Of a stretch of 64,000 nucleotides of DNA, positions 35,286 to 43,828 are shown one piece after another. The notes below the pieces were generated by a model. The model searched no databases. It saw nothing but the letters and a program-made list of their open reading frames with translations, and was not told the origin of the DNA. Each line of letters begins with the position of its first letter. Within the stretch, counting starts at the first letter, position 1. A program made the translations under genes and the position numbers. The DNA is from Sinorhizobium meliloti 4H41 (GTDB lineage Bacteria; Pseudomonadota; Alphaproteobacteria; Rhizobiales; Rhizobiaceae). Location: contig NZ_AQWP01000010.1 of assembly GCF_000375585.1 (NCBI RefSeq), positions 1 through 64,000 of the forward strand, written 5' to 3'.

Positions 35286-36848
35286 TCATCGAACGAGGTA
35301 GCTCTCGACTGCGCCTATGCCCCGTAGCTCCAGCGCGCAACGGCGCTCGAGCGTCCATTGACTGCGCAGCGCGCGCTTCGTCGCCTCGGAGATCTGTATG
35401 CAATCGGCCACCCCCTGGGATTCGAGCCGGCTCGCTATGTTCACCGTTTCTCCCCACACGTCGTAGACGAACCGGAGCCGCCCGATCAGTCCGGCGACGA
35501 CTGGCCCCGTATGGATTCCGATCCGAACCCGAAAACGGTCGGGCCCGGCTTCCGTGTCCTGCAAGGATCGAAGCATGGACTTTCCGAGGGCCACGACCCG
35601 GTCGGCATGATCCGGCGCAGGCTCCGGGATCCCGCAGGCGGCCATATAGGCGTCTCCTATGGTCTTGATCTTCTCGACACGGTGCTGCTCCGTAAGCAGA
35701 TCGAACCTCCTGAACATTCCGTCCAGGCGCCTGACCAGATCGGACGCAGTCGATCTTGCTGCAATGGGCGAAAAGCCGACGATATCGGCAAATAGAATGG
35801 AGACCTCTTCGAAGCGGTCGGCGATGATCTCTTCGCCATCCTGCAGCCGCACAACGATCTGGTCGGGCAGGATCGCGCGAATGAGGGAATCCGCCCGCAG
35901 CTTTTCCGCTTTTATCTCCTGGAGGTAGCGATGCTCCCGGTCGAGCCAGCGCTTCTTCTCGAGCGTGGAATTGATCCGCGCGCGCAGAAGTATCGGATTG
36001 AAAGGCTTCGTCAGATAATCGTCGGCGCCGGCCTCGATGCAGCGGGCTACCGCCGTGACATCACTCAAGCCCGAGATCATGATGACCGGGACGTGCTTCC
36101 ATCGCTCCTCAGACTTCAATCGCGACAGCATCTCGATGCCGTTCATGTCCGGCATCAGAATGTCGAGCAGGATGAGGTCGAACTCGCCCTCGGCCAATTT
36201 CGCCAGCGCGGACAGTCCGGATTCGGCGGTGACCACGCGGTGACCTTCGCGCCGCAGCCGCCGGGACAGGAGATCACGATTGCTGGCCACGTCGTCGACG
36301 ACGAGGATCCTGCCCCCCTGCTCCGGCCATGCAATCTCTTGCGCCTTGAACAGAAGTCGCTCGAGCCCTGCCGCGTCGATTTCGGCGCGTTCCCCCGGTT
36401 GAAGCATCTCGACCGTTTCCCCGCGCGAAAGGCTGGCGAGGGCGTCGACCTGCCTCAGGAGCTCTGCCGCCGCCGACAGTATCACATGGAGGTCTTCCTT
36501 CAGCGCATGCTCCGGCGCATCGCCTGCCTCTTCGAGGATCATTTCGGAATAGCCTATGATGGCGTTGAGCGGTGTGCGCAGGTCGTGGCGGAGTCTTGCC
36601 TCCGCCTCCGCTTCTCCTTCCTCCAGAGCGCAGGCAGTGCCCTCGAGAAGGCGATCGATAAAGCCGTTCAGTTGCCTTGCTGCAGCACCGATCCGGTCGA
36701 GATCGCTCTTAATGTGGATCAAACCGAGATCCCGCGCCTGCTCGATCAGCAGTTCCTGGAAGCCCAGGATTGCCCGCGCCGGGCCGGCCAATCGCTGGGC
36801 CACGTGAGCGGCGATCGCCTGGTGCTGGAAGTCGTTGCCGGTGGTCAT
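35286..36848 (-). CDS. HisKA-like / REC / class III adenylate cyclase
   Basis: This 520-residue soluble protein has three parts. Residues 80-150 resemble a histidine-kinase dimerisation helix ([18 protein letters not shown]) but no ATPase domain follows. Residues 180-305 are a receiver domain (LVVDDVASNR, LLDILMPDMNG, YLTKPF). Residues 345-520 are a class III nucleotide cyclase with ILFADIVGFS, KIKTIGDAYMAACG, YDVWGETVNIASR; the Lys and Asp pattern fits adenylate rather than guanylate cyclase. The receiver would switch cAMP synthesis by phosphorylation. It follows the small response regulator by eight bases; AGGTGGGA precedes the ATG. Confidence 0.87.
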   Translation of the reverse strand: MTTGNDFQHQAIAAHVAQRLAGPARAILGFQELLIEQARDLGLIHIKSDLDRIGAAARQLNGFIDRLLEGTACALEEGEAEAEARLRHDLRTPLNAIIGYSEMILEEAGDAPEHALKEDLHVILSAAAELLRQVDALASLSRGETVEMLQPGERAEIDAAGLERLLFKAQEIAWPEQGGRILVVDDVASNRDLLSRRLRREGHRVVTAESGLSALAKLAEGEFDLILLDILMPDMNGIEMLSRLKSEERWKHVPVIMISGLSDVTAVARCIEAGADDYLTKPFNPILLRARINSTLEKKRWLDREHRYLQEIKAEKLRADSLIRAILPDQIVVRLQDGEEIIADRFEEVSILFADIVGFSPIAARSTASDLVRRLDGMFRRFDLLTEQHRVEKIKTIGDAYMAACGIPEPAPDHADRVVALGKSMLRSLQDTEAGPDRFRVRIGIHTGPVVAGLIGRLRFVYDVWGETVNIASRLESQGVADCIQISEATKRALRSQWTLERRCALELRGIGAVESYLVR

Positions 36849-36856
36849 TTTCCCAC

Positions 36857-37222
36857 CTATACCGCGAGCAGCTGCTCGATCTTGCGAACGAGTTTGGGCA
36901 AGTCGACCGGCTTGCTGTCGTAATCGTCGCATCCGGCTTCAAGGGCCATCTCCCGGTCGCTTGCCATTGCATGCGCCGTCAGGGCGATGACCGGTATTCC
37001 GGATGTCAGCGGATTGGCCTTGATCCGTCGTGTCGCTTCCCAGCCGTCCATCACCGGCAGGCTCATATCCATGAGGATCAGGTCCGGCTTTTCGGATGCG
37101 GCAAGTTCGACGCCGGCCTTTCCGTTTTCAGCAATCAGCACGTCGAAGCCCCGGCGAGACAGCCGCCGGGAAAGCATGTCGCGGTTCATTTCATTGTCTT
37201 CCACCAGAAGGATTCTCGTCAT
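36857..37222 (-). CDS. Single-domain response regulator (CheY/DivK type)
   Basis: This 121-residue protein is a lone receiver domain: LLVEDNEMNRDM holds the acidic pair, ILMDMSLPVMDG the phosphorylated aspartate (about residue 54), and SKPVDLPKL the conserved lysine. There is no output domain, so it should act by shuttling phosphate or by binding partners, like DivK. It lies 24 bases after the hybrid kinase gene and 8 bases before the cyclase gene, an obvious link between the two in a phosphorelay. Confidence 0.92.
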   Translation of the reverse strand: MTRILLVEDNEMNRDMLSRRLSRRGFDVLIAENGKAGVELAASEKPDLILMDMSLPVMDGWEATRRIKANPLTSGIPVIALTAHAMASDREMALEAGCDDYDSKPVDLPKLVRKIEQLLAV

Positions 37223-37246
37223 TTGCGGCTCTCCTCCTGCATATGT

Positions 37247-40000
37247 TCAGCCGTCCGCGAGGGCTTTGCCGACCGAAGCGCCCGTTCCGATCTGACGTTC
37301 GAGTGCCGCGACCAGCTGGGAGCGGCTGTTTGCGCCTTTGTTCACGACAGCGACCGCGCGGTCGCGCAACCATTTCAGCTCGTTTGCGGAGAGGTCCTTC
37401 GACGTGACCACCACCACCGGAATGTTCTGCAGCTCCGGAATCCTCTGCATTTCGCTGAGCGTCTGGAACCCATCCATTTCCGGCATCAGAAGGTCGAGCA
37501 GGACGAGACGCGGCAGAATCCGCTTCATCATTTCCAGTCCGCGGATCCCGTCGCCCGCTTCGTGTACGGTCCACTTTCTCTTGACCAGAATGCGCCTGAG
37601 AAACTCGCGGGAGGCCTGGTCGTCGTCGACGACCAGAACGTCGTGCTTGCCGCCCCCGAATGTCTCGATCGTCCGGACCAGCTTGTCGGTATCGATCGGC
37701 TTCGTCAGATATTCGACCGCGCCGAGCGAAAGACCCAGCTCGCGGTCTGCCAGGATCGTCGCCAGGATCACCGGGATCGTGCATAATTCGGGATCGTTCT
37801 TCAGAGCGCGCAGGACCGACCAGCCGTCCTGATGCGGCATGATGATATCGAGGATGATCGCGTCTGGCCGATGCTTGCGTGCGGCAGACAATCCTTCCTG
37901 TCCGTTCGATGCCTCGATCGAAGCGAGGCCCGCTTCCGCCAGTGCCTTTGCGATAAGGCTGCGGGCAGCCGGCTCGTCGTCGATGATGAGTGCGGTGCGG
38001 CCCGACCCGACCTGCGGTACGGGTTCGGCCGGCGGTCCGTCGGCCTCTCTCTCGCACTGCGCCGGCACCTCCATGGTGAACATGGAACCCTTGCCGAATT
38101 CGCTTTCGACGGTAACGACGCCGCCGATCATGCGGCAGAAGCTGCGCGTGATGCTCAAGCCCAGGCCCGTGCCGCCGTAGTTTCGGGTGGTTGAGGCATC
38201 CGCCTGGGTGAAGGCATTGAAAAGCCGTTCCTGCTGCTCCGGTGACATGCCGATGCCGGTGTCGGAGACCTGGAACACAAGCCAGTCGCGGTCCGATCTT
38301 TGCTCCCGCCGGACCCTCAGGGTCACTCGCCCGCCATTCGTGAACTTGGCCGCATTGCTGAGCAGGTTGAAAAGGTTCTGGCGCAGCTTGGTCTGGTCGG
38401 AATGCATCTCGCCGAGATCGGCTTCGAAGTCGTGCGTGAACTCGTTTCCGTTCCTGGCCATCAACGGCGCGACCGTCGCCGCAACGTCACGGAGCAGGTC
38501 GGCAACGCTGAAGGTCTCGAGGAAAACCTCCATCTTGTTCGCCTCGATCTTCGACAGGTCGAGAATGTCGTTGATGAGCGAAAGAAGATGGCGACCCGCG
38601 GACGCTATCTTGTCGAGGTCCGGGACGAGCTCCTCATCCTCGTGGTCGCGTGCCTCCTCTATCAGCATCTCGCTGTAGCCGATGATCGCATTGAGGGGCG
38701 TGCGCAACTCGTGGCTCATGGAGGCGAGGAACTGGCTCTTGGCCTCGTTTGCCGACTCCGCGTGGCTCTTCGCGCGCTCGAGTTCGACCTGCCGCTGCTT
38801 GAGCTCGGTGATGTCGGTGTAGACGGCGACCGTTCCGCCATCCGGAATCTTTCGTTTGCTGATGCGGACCCACTTGTCGCCGAACCGCTTCTCGTCAACG
38901 AGGCCGGCAGGGTCCCGATGCAGCCTTACGCGCTCGTCGACCCACTCTTGCGGCGACTTGCCTTCGAGATCCACCTGGCCCATCTCCAGGTTCTGCTCCA
39001 CGATTTCGCGGAAGCTCCTGCCGCGGAGCGTATTCGGCTTGTGGCTCGGGAAGATTTCGCAATATTTGCTGTTGGCGACCAGGATTCTGTCCTCGGAATC
39101 ATAGAGGACGAAGCCATCCGAAATCACCTCGAGCGCGGCTGCGATCGTCCGCCGCTGCCGCTCCGCTTCGTCTTCGAGTTTTTTCTTTTCGATGGCGCTT
39201 TCCCGGAAGAGCGAAAGCGTCCTTGCCATCGCTCCCAGTTCGTCGCCGCCCTCTTCGGGGATATCGACGTCGTAACGTCCCTCCGTCAGGTCGCCGATGA
39301 CGCGATTGAGGCGCCGCAGCGGGCCGACGATAGAGCGCAGGACGAGGAGCGTCAGCAGCGAACCGATCAACACCACGCCGCCCACCAGGATGGCCGCGGT
39401 CGTGGCTGTCTTCTCGGTTTGCACGACGACCTCGTTGCGGGCAGCTTCCGCCTCGGCCTTTACCTGTTCCACGAGCCTGTTGAGATCCGCATCGACCTTG
39501 CCGCTGTGGGTGCGCGCCTTTGCCAGCAAGGCGTTGCCGACGATGCGGTTGTCCTGGGTGTAACTGTCGGCGGCCTGCAGAGCCGTTTCGACATAGGCGT
39601 CGACTTCCGTACGAATTGCCTCCACCGCCTCGGGCGCGTGCTTTGCGAGGCCCGCCAACTGTTCCTGCAACCGTTCGCGGGCCTCGTCGGCGTTGCGCTG
39701 GGAGTTCATCAGCAGACTGACGGAGAGATCGGTCAGCCAATATCTGAGATCGCCGAATGCCACATGGGCCGATGCGGCCGATGCCGCCCGATCGAAGAGC
39801 TCCCTGGTTTCGGCCATGCGCTCGGCACTGCGATAAAGCGCCTGCGTGAGAAACAGGGACGAAAGGACAAGGCTGATCAGGCCGGCCGCGGTGAGCGCGG
39901 CCACGCGGGCAGAGATCGGCAGATCGGTGATCCGGCTGTCGAGCCTTTTCGCGGGCCGGGCGGCCTGTGTCGACCCGAGCTCATGCCCAAGCGCACTCAT
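37247..40000 (-). CDS. Hybrid sensor histidine kinase (HAMP-PAS-HisKA-HATPase-REC-REC)
   Basis: This 917-residue inner-membrane kinase has two membrane helices (about residues 30-55 and 200-225) enclosing a helical periplasmic domain. A HAMP domain, a PAS domain (about 290-400), the HisKA box [17 protein letters not shown] and an HATPase domain ([25 protein letters not shown]) follow. Two receiver domains end the chain: one with LIIDDEP and ILDIIMP, one with LVVDDDQ and [11 protein letters not shown]. Its start overlaps the upstream heme-c-type gene as ATGA, suggesting that this exported protein is its signal partner. The phosphate could pass to the following single-domain regulator and cyclase receiver. 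Confidence 0.9.
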
Positions 40001-40755
40001 TTGAACAAGACGATGCTGATGGCACCGCCCAGATCGCCGGCCTTGCCGCCTTCCTTCGGATAGCCGGTGACGTCGATTTCACCCTTCGGCGAACCGTGAC
40101 AGGAAAGACAGGACTCCGTGTAATATTCCGGCAGCAGCATCCGGAACGCCGGGCGGCCGTTCACCTGCGTCACTTCCGTATAGAGTTCACCCTTCGGCCT
40201 CTGCGGATCCGAGAAGACCTCGTTGATGACCCGGGCCTCCCAAGCATCGGGAAGCGACTTGCGGTTGCGCACCAGAACCTCCGGCGCCGTGACCCGGACC
40301 AGCGCCTCATTGCCCGCCTTGACGGCAAATTTCTCGTTCATCAGACGCGCGAAAATGGCCGGGACGAAACCCTTGAACCCGATCCCGGGGCGGTTTATGT
40401 CGTCCTGCTCTTCATTCACGACTTCCCGCATCGCCTCGATCTGCGCCTGGAGAAGCTTGCGGTCGCGATCGCCGAGATCATTCGAGATCAACGGATGGCC
40501 GGTGCGCTCGCCATAAAGGGCGATCGCTTCGGCCGTGAACCGCTCGCCGTCGAGTTTCTTGTCTCCGATTGCCGGGTCATTGATGAGCGACTGGTAATTC
40601 GAAAGGACGTTTCGGGCGGCTCGCAATAACTCGGCAAGCCGCGTCCCGGTCGCGACGTCATCGGCCTCCTCGGCAGCAAGCGAAGGTGCGAAGAGCGCGC
40701 AACCGCACAATAACGTGACGATGCAGTTTCGCGCCAGGGCTGCAAGAGCTTCCAT
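39997..40755 (-). CDS. Exported Tll0287-like (DUF3365) protein with heme-c motif
   Basis: This 252-residue protein has a signal peptide (about residues 1-28) and a Tll0287-like (DUF3365) domain, ending with one heme-c attachment motif CLSCH at about residues 216-220 (in [13 protein letters not shown]). Such domains occur in PAS/heme-c sensory proteins. The protein has no output domain of its own. It is the first gene of the hybrid-kinase operon and overlaps the kinase gene by four bases, so it may sense redox state, oxygen, NO or a small ligand in the periplasm and pass it to the kinase. I chose the ATG at 40755; the TTG at 40782 is unlikely. Confidence 0.8.
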
Positions 40756-40877: not shown

Positions 40878-42797
40878 TCACTGCATATCGATGCGGGCAG
40901 CCGCATAAGCGGGCAGGTCGAGGATGTCGCTTTGGTGCGCTTTCGCCTCCAGTTCCTCCGCGCCATCGCGCAACCAGGTCTCGTCGAGGAGCGTAAGGCT
41001 ACGCGCGCCGGCCTCGGGAAGCATCACCCGTTGCAGATCGGGTGTGAGATTGGCAAGCAACAAGGTACTCGTTCCATTCAACGCCGCACCAAGGCCGGCA
41101 ACGCATTCGGGCGCGGATGTTTCGACCGCGATCCGCATGCCGTCCGACAGCTGCGCGAGCCAGGTCAGGACATGAGACAGCGGTCTCGTCCGACCGGCTT
41201 CGACGGGCTCCCCGGCGCTGACGATCAGCCCGAATGGTCCCGTAAGCGTCGAAAGCGTCAATAGCTCGGGCTCCGCATCGGCAACCGTCGCGGCATAGGC
41301 AAGCGTCCAGGCAGCGCCGAAGAGCGCGTTATGTCGGGGGTCCCGCGCCGCCATGGCGATCCGCTTGCCGAACGGATTGTCCTTCGTCGCGCTGCCATAG
41401 GGGTTCTGGCGCATGGCAATCGTGGAGGGACCTATGCGATAGGGCTTCGCGCCATAGATCGCGCGGACGGACCGGGTTACGTCCCGCAACGCCTCGAAGG
41501 TCTGCATCACGCTCGTGTCGTCGGCCGCATGGACGATCGGGCTGGTGCAGTGGGTGACGTAGGAAAGTCCTTCGGCGGGCACCCGCTTACGGTTGAGCTC
41601 GGTGAAATAGCTGAACATGCCGCCGCCGAGCGGCACGCCCGGAAACGCCTTCCGAGCGGCCGCATAGATGTCTTCGAGCGGCGGGCAGTCCGGCCAGACG
41701 CTACCGGGCGGCGTCGACTGCCGGTCGACCGAGGGAGAGACGGCCAGGCTTGCGAGGTCGAGGCCGCTCTGGCGCACAAGCTGCGCGATCTCGCCGAGTT
41801 CCGCATCGAGGGGTCGCTTGCATGGAACGAAACATTCGAGTGTCACCGCACAGCCCGACGCGTCGGCCACGCTTCGGAAGTGCCGAAGGTCAGTCAGACC
41901 GTGGCCGGCATCCGGGTCGAAATGGCAGACGAGGTGCCGTGCGCCGACCTGCTTCAGAAGCCCCGCATTGTCCAGCTCTTCGGCTGCAGCGTCCGGCCGC
42001 AGGCCGATGCCGATCTCGGGCAATCTTCCCGCATCGCGCCTGAGCGAAAGGCGAATTTTGCCTTGGCTGCGCTCTTCCAGCTCGGCGGTGTCCTCAGCCG
42101 CGAGAATCGAAAGCGTCACGCCCTGGTGCACCGTCTCACCCGCCTTCAGCAGATAGGGCCAGGGCAGTTCCAGCGGGCGCACGTAGGTCTTGTAGGAGCC
42201 GTCGGTCCAGTTCCGCTGGTCCTCCATCTCGAACACGTCGCCGGCGAAGCGGCACTCGGCCTTGATGCCGGGCGAAACTTCGTGGGTAATCGCGGCGATG
42301 TCCATGAACGGCTGCCAGGGCTCGATGAGGTCCGGGAAGACCGACCGTTCGACCGTGCCGTCTCCATGCTCCACCTGGACCGGCCGCCCGGCCAGACCGA
42401 CGATCGGATGCAGGACGGCGAAGCCGGCGCGCGCCGTTTCGAAATCGCGATCCGGCGTGAAGCGCGCGCCGAAGACGAGGCGGTCGGGCTTCAGGTCGAT
42501 AGTGGCGCTGCAATCGAGAAGAGCCCCATCCGGCGACCGGAACCTGGCGGAGTACCGAACGACTGTCCCGGCCCGGCCCTCCTCAAATGTCAGGTCGCGG
42601 ATTTCCGCCTCGCAGGTGCCCCAATCCCGGTCTCGGACGAGAAAGGAGATGGCCCTGAGTACCTCCTTGCCGGCAAAGCGGATCGTGCGCAGATTGCCGC
42701 TAACGAAATCGGCGCTCAAGCGGCCCGCCTCGATCCTGCGCGCCTCCGGCTCCTTCTCGTCGGTGCCGAAGAGGAGAAAGGCACGGGAGACCGTCAT
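40878..42797 (-). CDS. apnL: D-apionate lactonase
   Basis: This 639-residue protein lacks a signal peptide and has no widely known catalytic motif that I can point to; an N-terminal beta-rich domain is followed by a barrel-like part with HFDPDAGHG, ECFVPCKRP and GGMFSYFTELNR. The assignment rests on its size and its place next to apsD, apnO and a pentose-type ABC transporter, the arrangement described for D-apionate lactonase ApnL in apiose pathways. It would hydrolyse D-apionolactone made by ApsD to D-apionate. The ATG overlaps the apsD stop as ATGA, making this the last gene of the operon. Confidence 0.75.
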   Translation of the reverse strand: MTVSRAFLLFGTDEKEPEARRIEAGRLSADFVSGNLRTIRFAGKEVLRAISFLVRDRDWGTCEAEIRDLTFEEGRAGTVVRYSARFRSPDGALLDCSATIDLKPDRLVFGARFTPDRDFETARAGFAVLHPIVGLAGRPVQVEHGDGTVERSVFPDLIEPWQPFMDIAAITHEVSPGIKAECRFAGDVFEMEDQRNWTDGSYKTYVRPLELPWPYLLKAGETVHQGVTLSILAAEDTAELEERSQGKIRLSLRRDAGRLPEIGIGLRPDAAAEELDNAGLLKQVGARHLVCHFDPDAGHGLTDLRHFRSVADASGCAVTLECFVPCKRPLDAELGEIAQLVRQSGLDLASLAVSPSVDRQSTPPGSVWPDCPPLEDIYAAARKAFPGVPLGGGMFSYFTELNRKRVPAEGLSYVTHCTSPIVHAADDTSVMQTFEALRDVTRSVRAIYGAKPYRIGPSTIAMRQNPYGSATKDNPFGKRIAMAARDPRHNALFGAAWTLAYAATVADAEPELLTLSTLTGPFGLIVSAGEPVEAGRTRPLSHVLTWLAQLSDGMRIAVETSAPECVAGLGAALNGTSTLLLANLTPDLQRVMLPEAGARSLTLLDETWLRDGAEELEAKAHQSDILDLPAYAAARIDMQ

Positions 42798-43828
42798 CCG
42801 AGAACCTCCGCGAGTGAAACGGTCCGCCCTTCCGCCGCGCTCAGATAGGAGGCCTCGACCAGGGCGAAGGTCTCGAGATTGTCGCGGCCGGACGTATCCG
42901 GCTCGCGTCCGGCCCGCAAGGCTTCGATCCAATGCTGCTGGATCAGCGCGACGCTCTCCTGAATGTTGTGCCAGGGAGGCGACGCCCAGGAAAGGACGGG
43001 CGGTTCCACATTCGTCAGCTTGGTAGCCCCCTTCGCGTGAACGGCAAGGTGATAGCCCTGCGTTAGCCGCAAGGTGCCCTTGCTCCCGTCCACCTCCACG
43101 AGGGTCTCGGGAAAGGGCTCGATCGGCAGCCTGGTCGCGTAGCTGCAGTCGACGATCGATGTGATCCCCCCGTCATGGTCCAGGAGCATCGTCGCGACGT
43201 CCTCGCCGGCAATCGCCGGATTGACCCGGCGCGTGCGCGCGGTCACCGCCGTCGCATCACCGAAGATGTAGCGCGCGACGTCGAGCGCATGAATGCCGAG
43301 ATCCTCGATGATGAAGCGTTTGCCCGTTGCGAGATAGGGCTGGCCGGAGAACACGTCGTAACCCGATCGGAAGCTTATCCGCCCCCAGAACACCTCGCCG
43401 ATCGCGCCGCTGTCGATCGCCGCCTTTACCGCCCGTATCGGCGACTGCCAGCGGAAATTCTCGTGAACCATGAACGCCACGCCTGATTTCGCGCAAGCCG
43501 AGACCATTGCCTTGGCGTCCGCCATGGTGGGCGCGATCGGCTTCTGACAGATCGTCGCGACCCCGTGTCGCGCGGCCATTTCCACCAGCGCCCGGTGACT
43601 TCCCACGGTCGTGGCGATGTCGACGAAATCGAAGCCGCCATCGGCAAAAAGGTCCTCGGCCGAGGTGTAGCGCCGCTGAATGTCGAACGCGTCGCCGACC
43701 GCCTTCAGCCTCTCGGGATCCCGATCGCAGATGGCCACGATGCGCGCCCCTTCGGCGTCACGCCAGCCGTGCATCTGGTTGACTGCGAAGAACCCGCAGC
43801 CGATCAGCGCGCCTTTGAGGTCTGTCAT
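42794..43828 (-). CDS. apsD: D-apiose dehydrogenase (Gfo/Idh/MocA family)
   Basis: This 344-residue oxidoreductase has an N-terminal Rossmann motif (LIGCGFFAVNQMHGW) and the family catalytic features CQKPIAP (the lysine of the EKP motif), ENFRWQ and DLGIHALDVARY with the conserved histidine. Its context, between a sugar ABC permease and an apnL-like gene, indicates ApsD, which oxidises D-apiose to D-apionolactone with NAD(P). The ATG at 43828 has AAGGGG at good spacing; a GTG at 43837 overlapping the permease stop is the alternative. Without context it could only be called a sugar dehydrogenase. Confidence 0.83.
   Translation of the reverse strand: MTDLKGALIGCGFFAVNQMHGWRDAEGARIVAICDRDPERLKAVGDAFDIQRRYTSAEDLFADGGFDFVDIATTVGSHRALVEMAARHGVATICQKPIAPTMADAKAMVSACAKSGVAFMVHENFRWQSPIRAVKAAIDSGAIGEVFWGRISFRSGYDVFSGQPYLATGKRFIIEDLGIHALDVARYIFGDATAVTARTRRVNPAIAGEDVATMLLDHDGGITSIVDCSYATRLPIEPFPETLVEVDGSKGTLRLTQGYHLAVHAKGATKLTNVEPPVLSWASPPWHNIQESVALIQQHWIEALRAGREPDTSGRDNLETFALVEASYLSAAEGRTVSLAEVLG

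Follow-up and report, generated by a model that had tools for sequence, protein, structure and literature searches.

An exported heme protein encoded at the head of a signal transduction operon raises the question of whether it serves as the sensor for the proteins encoded behind it. We address this question for a four-gene operon on the minus strand (positions 35286-40755) of a 64,000-nucleotide stretch of the Sinorhizobium meliloti 4H41 genome (contig NZ_AQWP01000010.1, positions 1 to 64,000), hereafter the window. The operon comprises a Tll0287-like gene followed, after a 4-base ATGA overlap and then gaps of 24 and 8 bases, by genes for a hybrid histidine kinase, for a lone receiver and for a class III cyclase that also has HisKA and REC domains. 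A preliminary description, made from the sequence alone, had listed the exported Tll0287-like protein with its CLSCH motif, the kinase with two receivers, the lone receiver, the HisKA-like/REC/adenylate cyclase protein and the gene spacing. The coordinates reproduce this spacing, the Pfam matches confirm the domains and add HAMP and PAS to the kinase, and the first protein carries the motif, matches PF11845 (E 4e-19, 69.8 bits, cut-off 24.1) and, judging by eye from its N-terminus, is exported. Across the loci compared here, the constant part is the heme protein together with the four-helix domain of the gene that follows.

A constant pair with variable outputs

In a scan of named genomes, 233 relatives of the window heme protein were confirmed, and the 80 most similar to it were kept (loci L023-L102); these come from Sinorhizobium, Mesorhizobium, Rhizobium, Phyllobacterium, Stappia, Rhodobacteraceae and Rhodospirillales, with a few Burkholderiales and Gammaproteobacteria bins. 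The next gene starts with a homologue of the kinase periplasmic domain in all 80 loci (weakest E 1.3e-21), and 61 of them have a start codon placed so that the two genes could overlap by the same 4 bases. A sample of 199 family genomes has the heme protein at nine places in eight genomes, the window included; a kinase homologue follows it at all nine, and the lone receiver and the cyclase are also present at seven. Whether the whole set is kept together elsewhere, which the preliminary description had made its own touchstone, is answered by this recurrence and by the named genomes, where a script found matches to the kinase core, the lone receiver, the DHp segment and the cyclase in 59 of the 80 loci, the 60th (L074) having been dropped by its distance filter; a set that recurs this often is not a chance arrangement. 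Elsewhere in the family, locus L021 has a REC-SpoIIE gene close by on the opposite strand, L020 has no cyclase match within the 15 kb examined, and genome G088 (L022) has genes for a receiver kinase, for a receiver and for a cyclase but lacks the heme protein, and a search at E 1e-15 did not find the kinase's sensor part there.

Because the 80 loci had been picked by similarity, a wider sample of 385 genomes of the class was drawn, in which PF11845 has 74 matches in 55 genomes; we took the 32 matches with frames of up to 366 amino acids, the window aside, and left out 41 longer ones. Five are intact full-length relatives (L154, L156, L157, L158 and L160), and the same periplasmic domain comes next in all five, the contig of L154 ending inside the gene for this domain. 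Searched for by itself, the four-helix domain was found in nine of the 385 genomes, six of which have it adjoining a CXXCH partner; among 398 genomes of the phylum, partly overlapping with the earlier samples, it was found in six, with the heme protein adjoining in five and no strong partner in the sixth (G587, E 1.5e-8).

Some loci do not conform to the pairing and count against it. In L151, the heme gene is broken by a stop codon and the frame behind it matches the domain profile along no more than 85 residues; a HAMP-free search of that genome found no four-helix domain. In L174, the domain lies beside a heme-protein homologue that reads RLTCH, and in L175 and L176, beside a different small secreted protein without a Pfam match. 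The RLTCH homologue (L174:4679-5644), itself next to a kinase-cyclase operon, could reflect real loss, a single-thioether heme or a sequencing error. The proteins with the domain in the other two loci (L175:3836-5845, L176:4114-6398) look like chemoreceptors, a label taken from the sequence, and are encoded after the secreted protein, of 152-154 amino acids, and a porin-like gene; this secreted protein is a possible alternative sensor partner.

What follows the pair varies. A cyclase of another build is present in eight of the named loci (L052, L055, L066, L086, L091, L094, L095 and L100, the last with the cyclase on the opposite strand), recognized by Pfam in six and by tblastn in L066 and L095. 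Identity to the window kinase in L052, L055 and L066 falls to 24-27% in the core, whereas the sensor and PAS regions are 52-56% identical. The output is a REC-SpoIIE protein in L083 and L085 and a REC-EamA protein in L087, L088, L096 and L098; L092 and L102 encode GAF kinases followed by a NUDIX protein; and in L158, from the class sample, the output is a chemoreceptor by Pfam. The scan did not extend to the output of L097, L054 and L099 run off their contigs, and the cyclase is masked in L067 and in part in L068. Given that the pair is kept while the kinase core and the output change, the heme protein and the four-helix domain very probably form a two-protein input module that works by analogy with XylFII-LytS or TorT-TorS.

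In the REC-EamA proteins (L087:11610-13502, L088:11825-13426, L096:11822-13411, L098:11450-13000), the receiver is joined to a multi-helix membrane domain of the EamA type and may thereby control a protein resembling a transporter. In L101, the gene directly ahead of the cAMP (cyclic AMP) operon (L101:5124-7808) encodes a glutaminase fused to a cyclic-nucleotide-binding domain, a possible target of cAMP.

The four-helix domain itself, at about residues 56-199 of the kinase, has no Pfam match, and its model (pLDDT 93.6) is a four-helix bundle. The best match in the PDB by VIA-align is LytSN in the XylFII-LytSN complex (Z 17.2, 1.8 Å over 117 residues), followed by McpS (Z 15.6) and TorS (Z 15.4); by their PDB titles, LytSN and TorS were each solved in complex with a periplasmic partner. 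This resemblance is offset by the four-helix domains of McpS, MCP2201 and PcaY, which were solved with small ligands and score close to LytSN and TorS (Z 14-16), and by helical bundles in general, which reach Z of about 13 by common arrangement alone. The fold by itself is therefore no proof of docking, and it is the constant gene pairing that does most to suggest it.

The cyclase N-terminus and the proposed relay

Residues of the relay were counted in the 68 of 81 aligned kinases that are 880-945 amino acids long and in the 62 lone receivers and cyclases that passed the score filter. His430, the N-box Asn, D718 and D836 are present in all 68 kinases, and D52 in all 62 lone receivers. The cyclases retain D229 and six catalytic residues (K395, D463, D355, D399, N470 and R474) in 62 of 62 and His88 in 61, with one gap; we take the six to be the metal Asp pair, the Lys/Asp pair for adenine and the Asn/Arg pair.

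Ahead of its receiver, the cyclase contains two homologous hairpins in one chain, with one phosphorylatable His and no ATPase. Of the 62 cyclases, 57 have a first hairpin that matches a profile built on the second at E < 1e-3, and a profile alignment of the two (60 sequences each) has a probability of 98.7%, E 4e-16 and 33% identity over 58 columns, the best E in 20 column shuffles that served as the control being 0.005. The position equivalent to His88 in the first hairpin is Gln in 55, Glu in four, Asp in two and a gap in one, but never His. DHp domains normally pair between two chains; with both halves in one chain and one His between them, the segment follows the logic of an Hpt domain, and the tandem DHp is probably a single-chain Hpt-like carrier. 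The preliminary description had remarked on an unusual kinase-like dimerisation segment without an ATPase; the ATPase-less HisKA is indeed present, but a relay module of the Hpt type is the better reading of it. The two similar bins L083 and L085 have the DHp module as a free-standing protein, encoded between the lone receiver and the REC-SpoIIE protein, and Hpt domains take its place in six loci (L087, L088, L096, L097, L098 and L100; by Pfam in L088, L096 and L100).

Two results temper this assignment. The carrier rule is not universal because neither a second DHp nor an Hpt domain was found in the DNA examined of eight variants (L020, L021, L086, L091, L094, L095, L156 and L174). The DHp helices of kinase and cyclase share the motif LRTPxNAIxGY, and their comparison yielded no pair-specific covariation, with 60.4% identity in the loci's own pairs and 59.0% in mismatched ones.

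From these features, we propose that the heme protein docks on the periplasmic four-helix domain of the kinase and that the state of its heme sets kinase activity through HAMP and PAS. The phosphate would then pass from His430 to Asp718 or Asp836 and, directly or via the lone receiver, to His88 and Asp229, a direction of flow that we infer, and phosphorylation of Asp229 would lead to cAMP synthesis, the sign of the output being part of the proposal. A relay that ends in cAMP is likely; that it is driven by a two-protein periplasmic input, as a His-Asp relay to the cyclase, is a fairly probable extension.

The heme protein and its possible signal

The Tll0287-like identity proposed in the preliminary description holds at the level of the fold as well as by Pfam: the AlphaFold model (pLDDT 92.7) aligns by VIA-align with Tll0287 (PDB 5b82) at Z 12.5 (2.9 Å over 142 residues), the next entry reaching Z 7.2. 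Foldseek gave no match to the model at E <= 0.001 (best E 0.078; GSU0935 at E 0.11-0.18), and a PDB sequence search with the protein or the family profile retrieved nothing relevant. All 81 aligned heme proteins, the window included, contain CXXCH and, beyond residue 26, that is, with the signal region excluded, no other Cys; among His and Met, only the motif His is conserved at >=80%, and near-invariant positions are K66, K128, K166, Y211, Y212, Y232 and K234. Around residue 19, 33 of the 81 fit a loose pattern, which admits the non-canonical LCGC, for a lipobox-like LxGC that is not conserved; it is found in the window (40699-40701) and in most Sinorhizobium and Mesorhizobium copies, and the copies that bear it might be membrane-anchored.

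The PF11845 domain family has been described as sCache_heme in a 2026 preprint (PMC12889525; this and the other PMC sources are cited here from excerpts), and Tll0287, DUF3365 or PF11845 is mentioned also in PMC4582080, PMC8396549, PMC8694187, PMC7726332 and PMC9230427. Close to half of the sCache_heme domains stand alone, and redox roles are ascribed to these; a Cys-ligated stand-alone protein releases nitric oxide (NO) quickly, whereas a HAMP-linked protein without the axial Cys holds NO, with an off-rate of 6e-4 per second (PMC12889525). The preliminary description was aware of no described system with this combination, a remark that needs qualification, as the domain family is known. As for the pairing, the excerpts of PMC12889525 describe no stand-alone member paired with a kinase, and the titles and abstracts listed in searches of the open-licence literature contain no pairing of a stand-alone Tll0287-like protein with a kinase. 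Twelve short Tll0287-type relatives in the class sample, one of which (L148) matches 5b82 by sequence, have one further invariant Cys, which fits the Cys ligand reported for Tll0287 and the Pseudomonas putida relative, although the profile alignment covers the C-terminal part only, so that the position of the axial Cys cannot be mapped residue by residue. Lacking this Cys, as does the NO-binding HAMP-linked protein, the window protein looks like the NO-holding sensors even though it is stand-alone.

We propose that the exported protein would carry one covalent c-type heme, the distal site of which may be open to a small ligand, since there is no Cys to serve as the axial ligand of Tll0287-type proteins. 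NO would be the most likely ligand, with the redox state of the heme as the alternative. That NO is the physiological signal we consider possible, but with less than even confidence. This estimate was lowered because four short stand-alone PF11845 proteins (L150, L152, L153 and L155), with no kinase core and no four-helix domain in the DNA examined, also have no further Cys; the missing Cys alone is thus no mark of a sensor, and the further Cys does not define all stand-alone members. Nor do the upstream genes of 10 relatives, one gene for each, point to NO or denitrification as a theme; as clues to the signal, these genes were rejected, seven matching different Pfam families and three matching none.

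The same four unpaired proteins agree with a reading in which the kinase is informed by the heme protein about the periplasmic redox state or about electron flow, with the pairing and the relay unchanged. The redox roles given to stand-alone members in PMC12889525 point the same way, and the heme may have a Lys or Tyr as a ligand that switches with redox state, considering the near-invariant Lys and Tyr residues and the lack of a conserved His, Met or Cys outside the motif. On the other side is the absence, in 81 of 81 proteins, of the further Cys of the 12 short relatives, matching the lack of an axial Cys in the NO-binding protein of that preprint; we regard redox sensing as possible, if somewhat doubtful. 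A more radical departure is that the heme protein carries electrons or scavenges NO in the periplasm and has nothing but the operon in common with the kinase, the domain of which would itself detect a small molecule in the manner of PcaY or McpN domains. The small-ligand four-helix domains mentioned above, with their Z scores near those of LytSN and TorS, would suit this reading, but a pairing that stays constant through changes of the kinase core and of the whole output, together with an ATGA overlap that 61 of 80 loci allow, makes it quite improbable.

At the other end of the pathway, the tandem DHp of the cyclase could be only a dimerisation or linker element, with the kinase phosphorylating the cyclase receiver directly and His88 a relic. 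Plain REC-cyclases with no DHp or Hpt domain nearby in L086, L091, L094 and L156 indicate that the segment is dispensable in evolution; against this, His88 is kept in 61 of 62 cyclases, with one gap, while the equivalent position of the first hairpin is never His, and a free-standing DHp protein occurs in L083 and L085. We consider a mere linker unlikely. The most far-reaching reading is that of a trans-acting periplasmic heme-c gas sensor and an undescribed four-helix docking domain with interchangeable secreted sensors (the heme protein or, in two chemoreceptors, another small secreted protein) and interchangeable outputs (cAMP, SpoIIE phosphatase and chemotaxis). In rhizobia, this system would make cAMP in response to periplasmic NO, by way of a DHp pseudo-dimer in one chain that has evolved into a carrier like Hpt; in this full form, the proposal is tentative and less probable than not.

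Genomic setting and known systems

Table 1 Features of the operon and of related loci (window positions unless a locus is named)
Feature	Position	Strand	Basis
Tll0287-like (sCache_heme) protein, 252 amino acids, exported by N-terminus (judged by eye)	39997-40755	minus	PF11845, AlphaFold model
CLSCH c-type heme motif, residues 216-220	40096-40110	minus	sequence
ATGA stop/start overlap, heme protein/kinase	39997-40000	minus	sequence; in-frame start at -4 in 61/80 loci
Hybrid histidine kinase, 917 amino acids: four-helix domain, HAMP, PAS, HisKA, HATPase, REC, REC	37247-40000	minus	Pfam (HAMP, PAS_7, HisKA, HATPase_c, two Response_reg)
Predicted periplasmic four-helix sensor/docking domain of the kinase, about residues 56-199	39404-39835	minus	homologues, model
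Stand-alone receiver, 121 amino acids, D52	36857-37222	minus	Pfam Response_reg, 5e-28
Tandem-DHp/REC/class III adenylate cyclase, 520 amino acids from ATG at 36848	35286-36848	minus	Pfam (HisKA, Response_reg, Guanylate_cyc 1e-52)
First DHp-like hairpin of the cyclase, residues 12-69, Gln18 at the His position	36642-36815	minus	profile-profile match
Second DHp hairpin of the cyclase, residues 82-139, predicted phosphoacceptor His88	36432-36605	minus	His88 in 61/62
Cyclase receiver domain, D229	35973-36308	minus	Pfam; D229 in 62/62
Class III cyclase catalytic domain: K395/D463 (ATP-type), metal D355/D399, N470/R474	35292-35822	minus	six residues in 62/62
Free-standing tandem-DHp protein without ATPase or receiver	L083:4981-5430, L085:11806-12381
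Second short stand-alone PF11845 subtype without further Cys	L150:5872-6486, L152:1684-2277, L153:5965-6549, L155:140-736

The 6.79 Mb genome contains a single match to the heme protein and 23 matches to the class III cyclase family (PF00211), of which the operon cyclase is the strongest, and encodes the cytochrome c maturation protein CcmB. A promoter scan returned two sites, neither on the operon strand, with a mean of 1.0 in shuffled sequences, and terminator-like sites are no more numerous than in shuffles. The heme protein is encoded in 79 plasmid records, 67 of them from Sinorhizobium (60 rows listed), including pSymB of S. meliloti 1021 (97.6% identity) and R28 (98.4%); strain 2011 also has the gene. 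In R28, the four genes are annotated as a DUF3365 protein, two response regulators and an adenylate/guanylate cyclase, with no more specific names. Adjoining the operon, the window encodes a D-apionate lactonase (NF049900, 834 bits; 40878-42932), at the place of which R28 has a similarly sized gene with sugar ABC transporter genes. Apiose as a theme of the operon was rejected because the lactonase is its neighbor only in the window and in L023 among the 80 loci.

The operon offers otherwise unexplained stand-alone sCache_heme proteins a testable partner: in this subgroup, the kinase or chemoreceptor encoded by the next gene shows how such members could be receptors. The proposal adds a periplasmic heme input acting in trans to bacterial cAMP signaling and a clear candidate for a phosphotransfer module derived from a dimerisation domain of kinases. 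For S. meliloti Rm2011, a strain from which every one of the 28 class III cyclases is missing is available, as is a cAMP reporter (PMC13001267).

With the sCache_heme, DUF3365 and Tll0287 proteins (PMC12889525; PDB 5b82, 3b42, 3b47), the window protein shares PF11845, CXXCH and the Cache fold, but it is encoded beside its own kinase, or in one relative beside a chemoreceptor, rather than fused to a receptor. It also differs from the short Tll0287-type relatives of about 200 amino acids with a second Cys, the paired heme proteins being about 250 amino acids long and having no second Cys in the mature protein. A kinase-paired subgroup of stand-alone proteins speaks against a simple functional split between stand-alone and fused members.

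XylFII-LytS and TorT-TorS resemble the window system in having a separate periplasmic sensor protein, secretion being judged by eye in our case, and a four-helix sensor domain in LytS and TorS, but the window sensor has a Cache fold like that of Tll0287 instead of a periplasmic-binding-protein fold, so that it would work alike without being a member of these systems. As a predicted heme-c Cache protein, it differs from sensors of the XylF, TorT and AioX types, which bind sugar, trimethylamine N-oxide (TMAO) or arsenite. The output of the XylFII-LytS, TorT-TorS and AioX systems (the AioX kinase is presumably AioS) is a transcription factor, whereas that of the window system is a cyclase. With AioX and its kinase (PMC5908839), the likeness is again the separate periplasmic sensor protein.

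Compared with HPt domains, ChpT and Spo0B, the cyclase segment has two DHp hairpins per chain, one of them without the His, and is fused to a REC-cyclase or free-standing. HPt domains, ChpT and Spo0B carry phosphate on a His between receivers and have no kinase activity, which is where the likeness to the cyclase DHp segment lies. S. meliloti Rm2011 has 28 class III cyclases; CyaD1, CyaD2 and CyaK have CHASE2, and CyaB has four transmembrane helices (PMC13001267). The window cyclase is a class III cyclase by family and appears to differ in being controlled by a receiver and served by a dedicated, heme-linked kinase.

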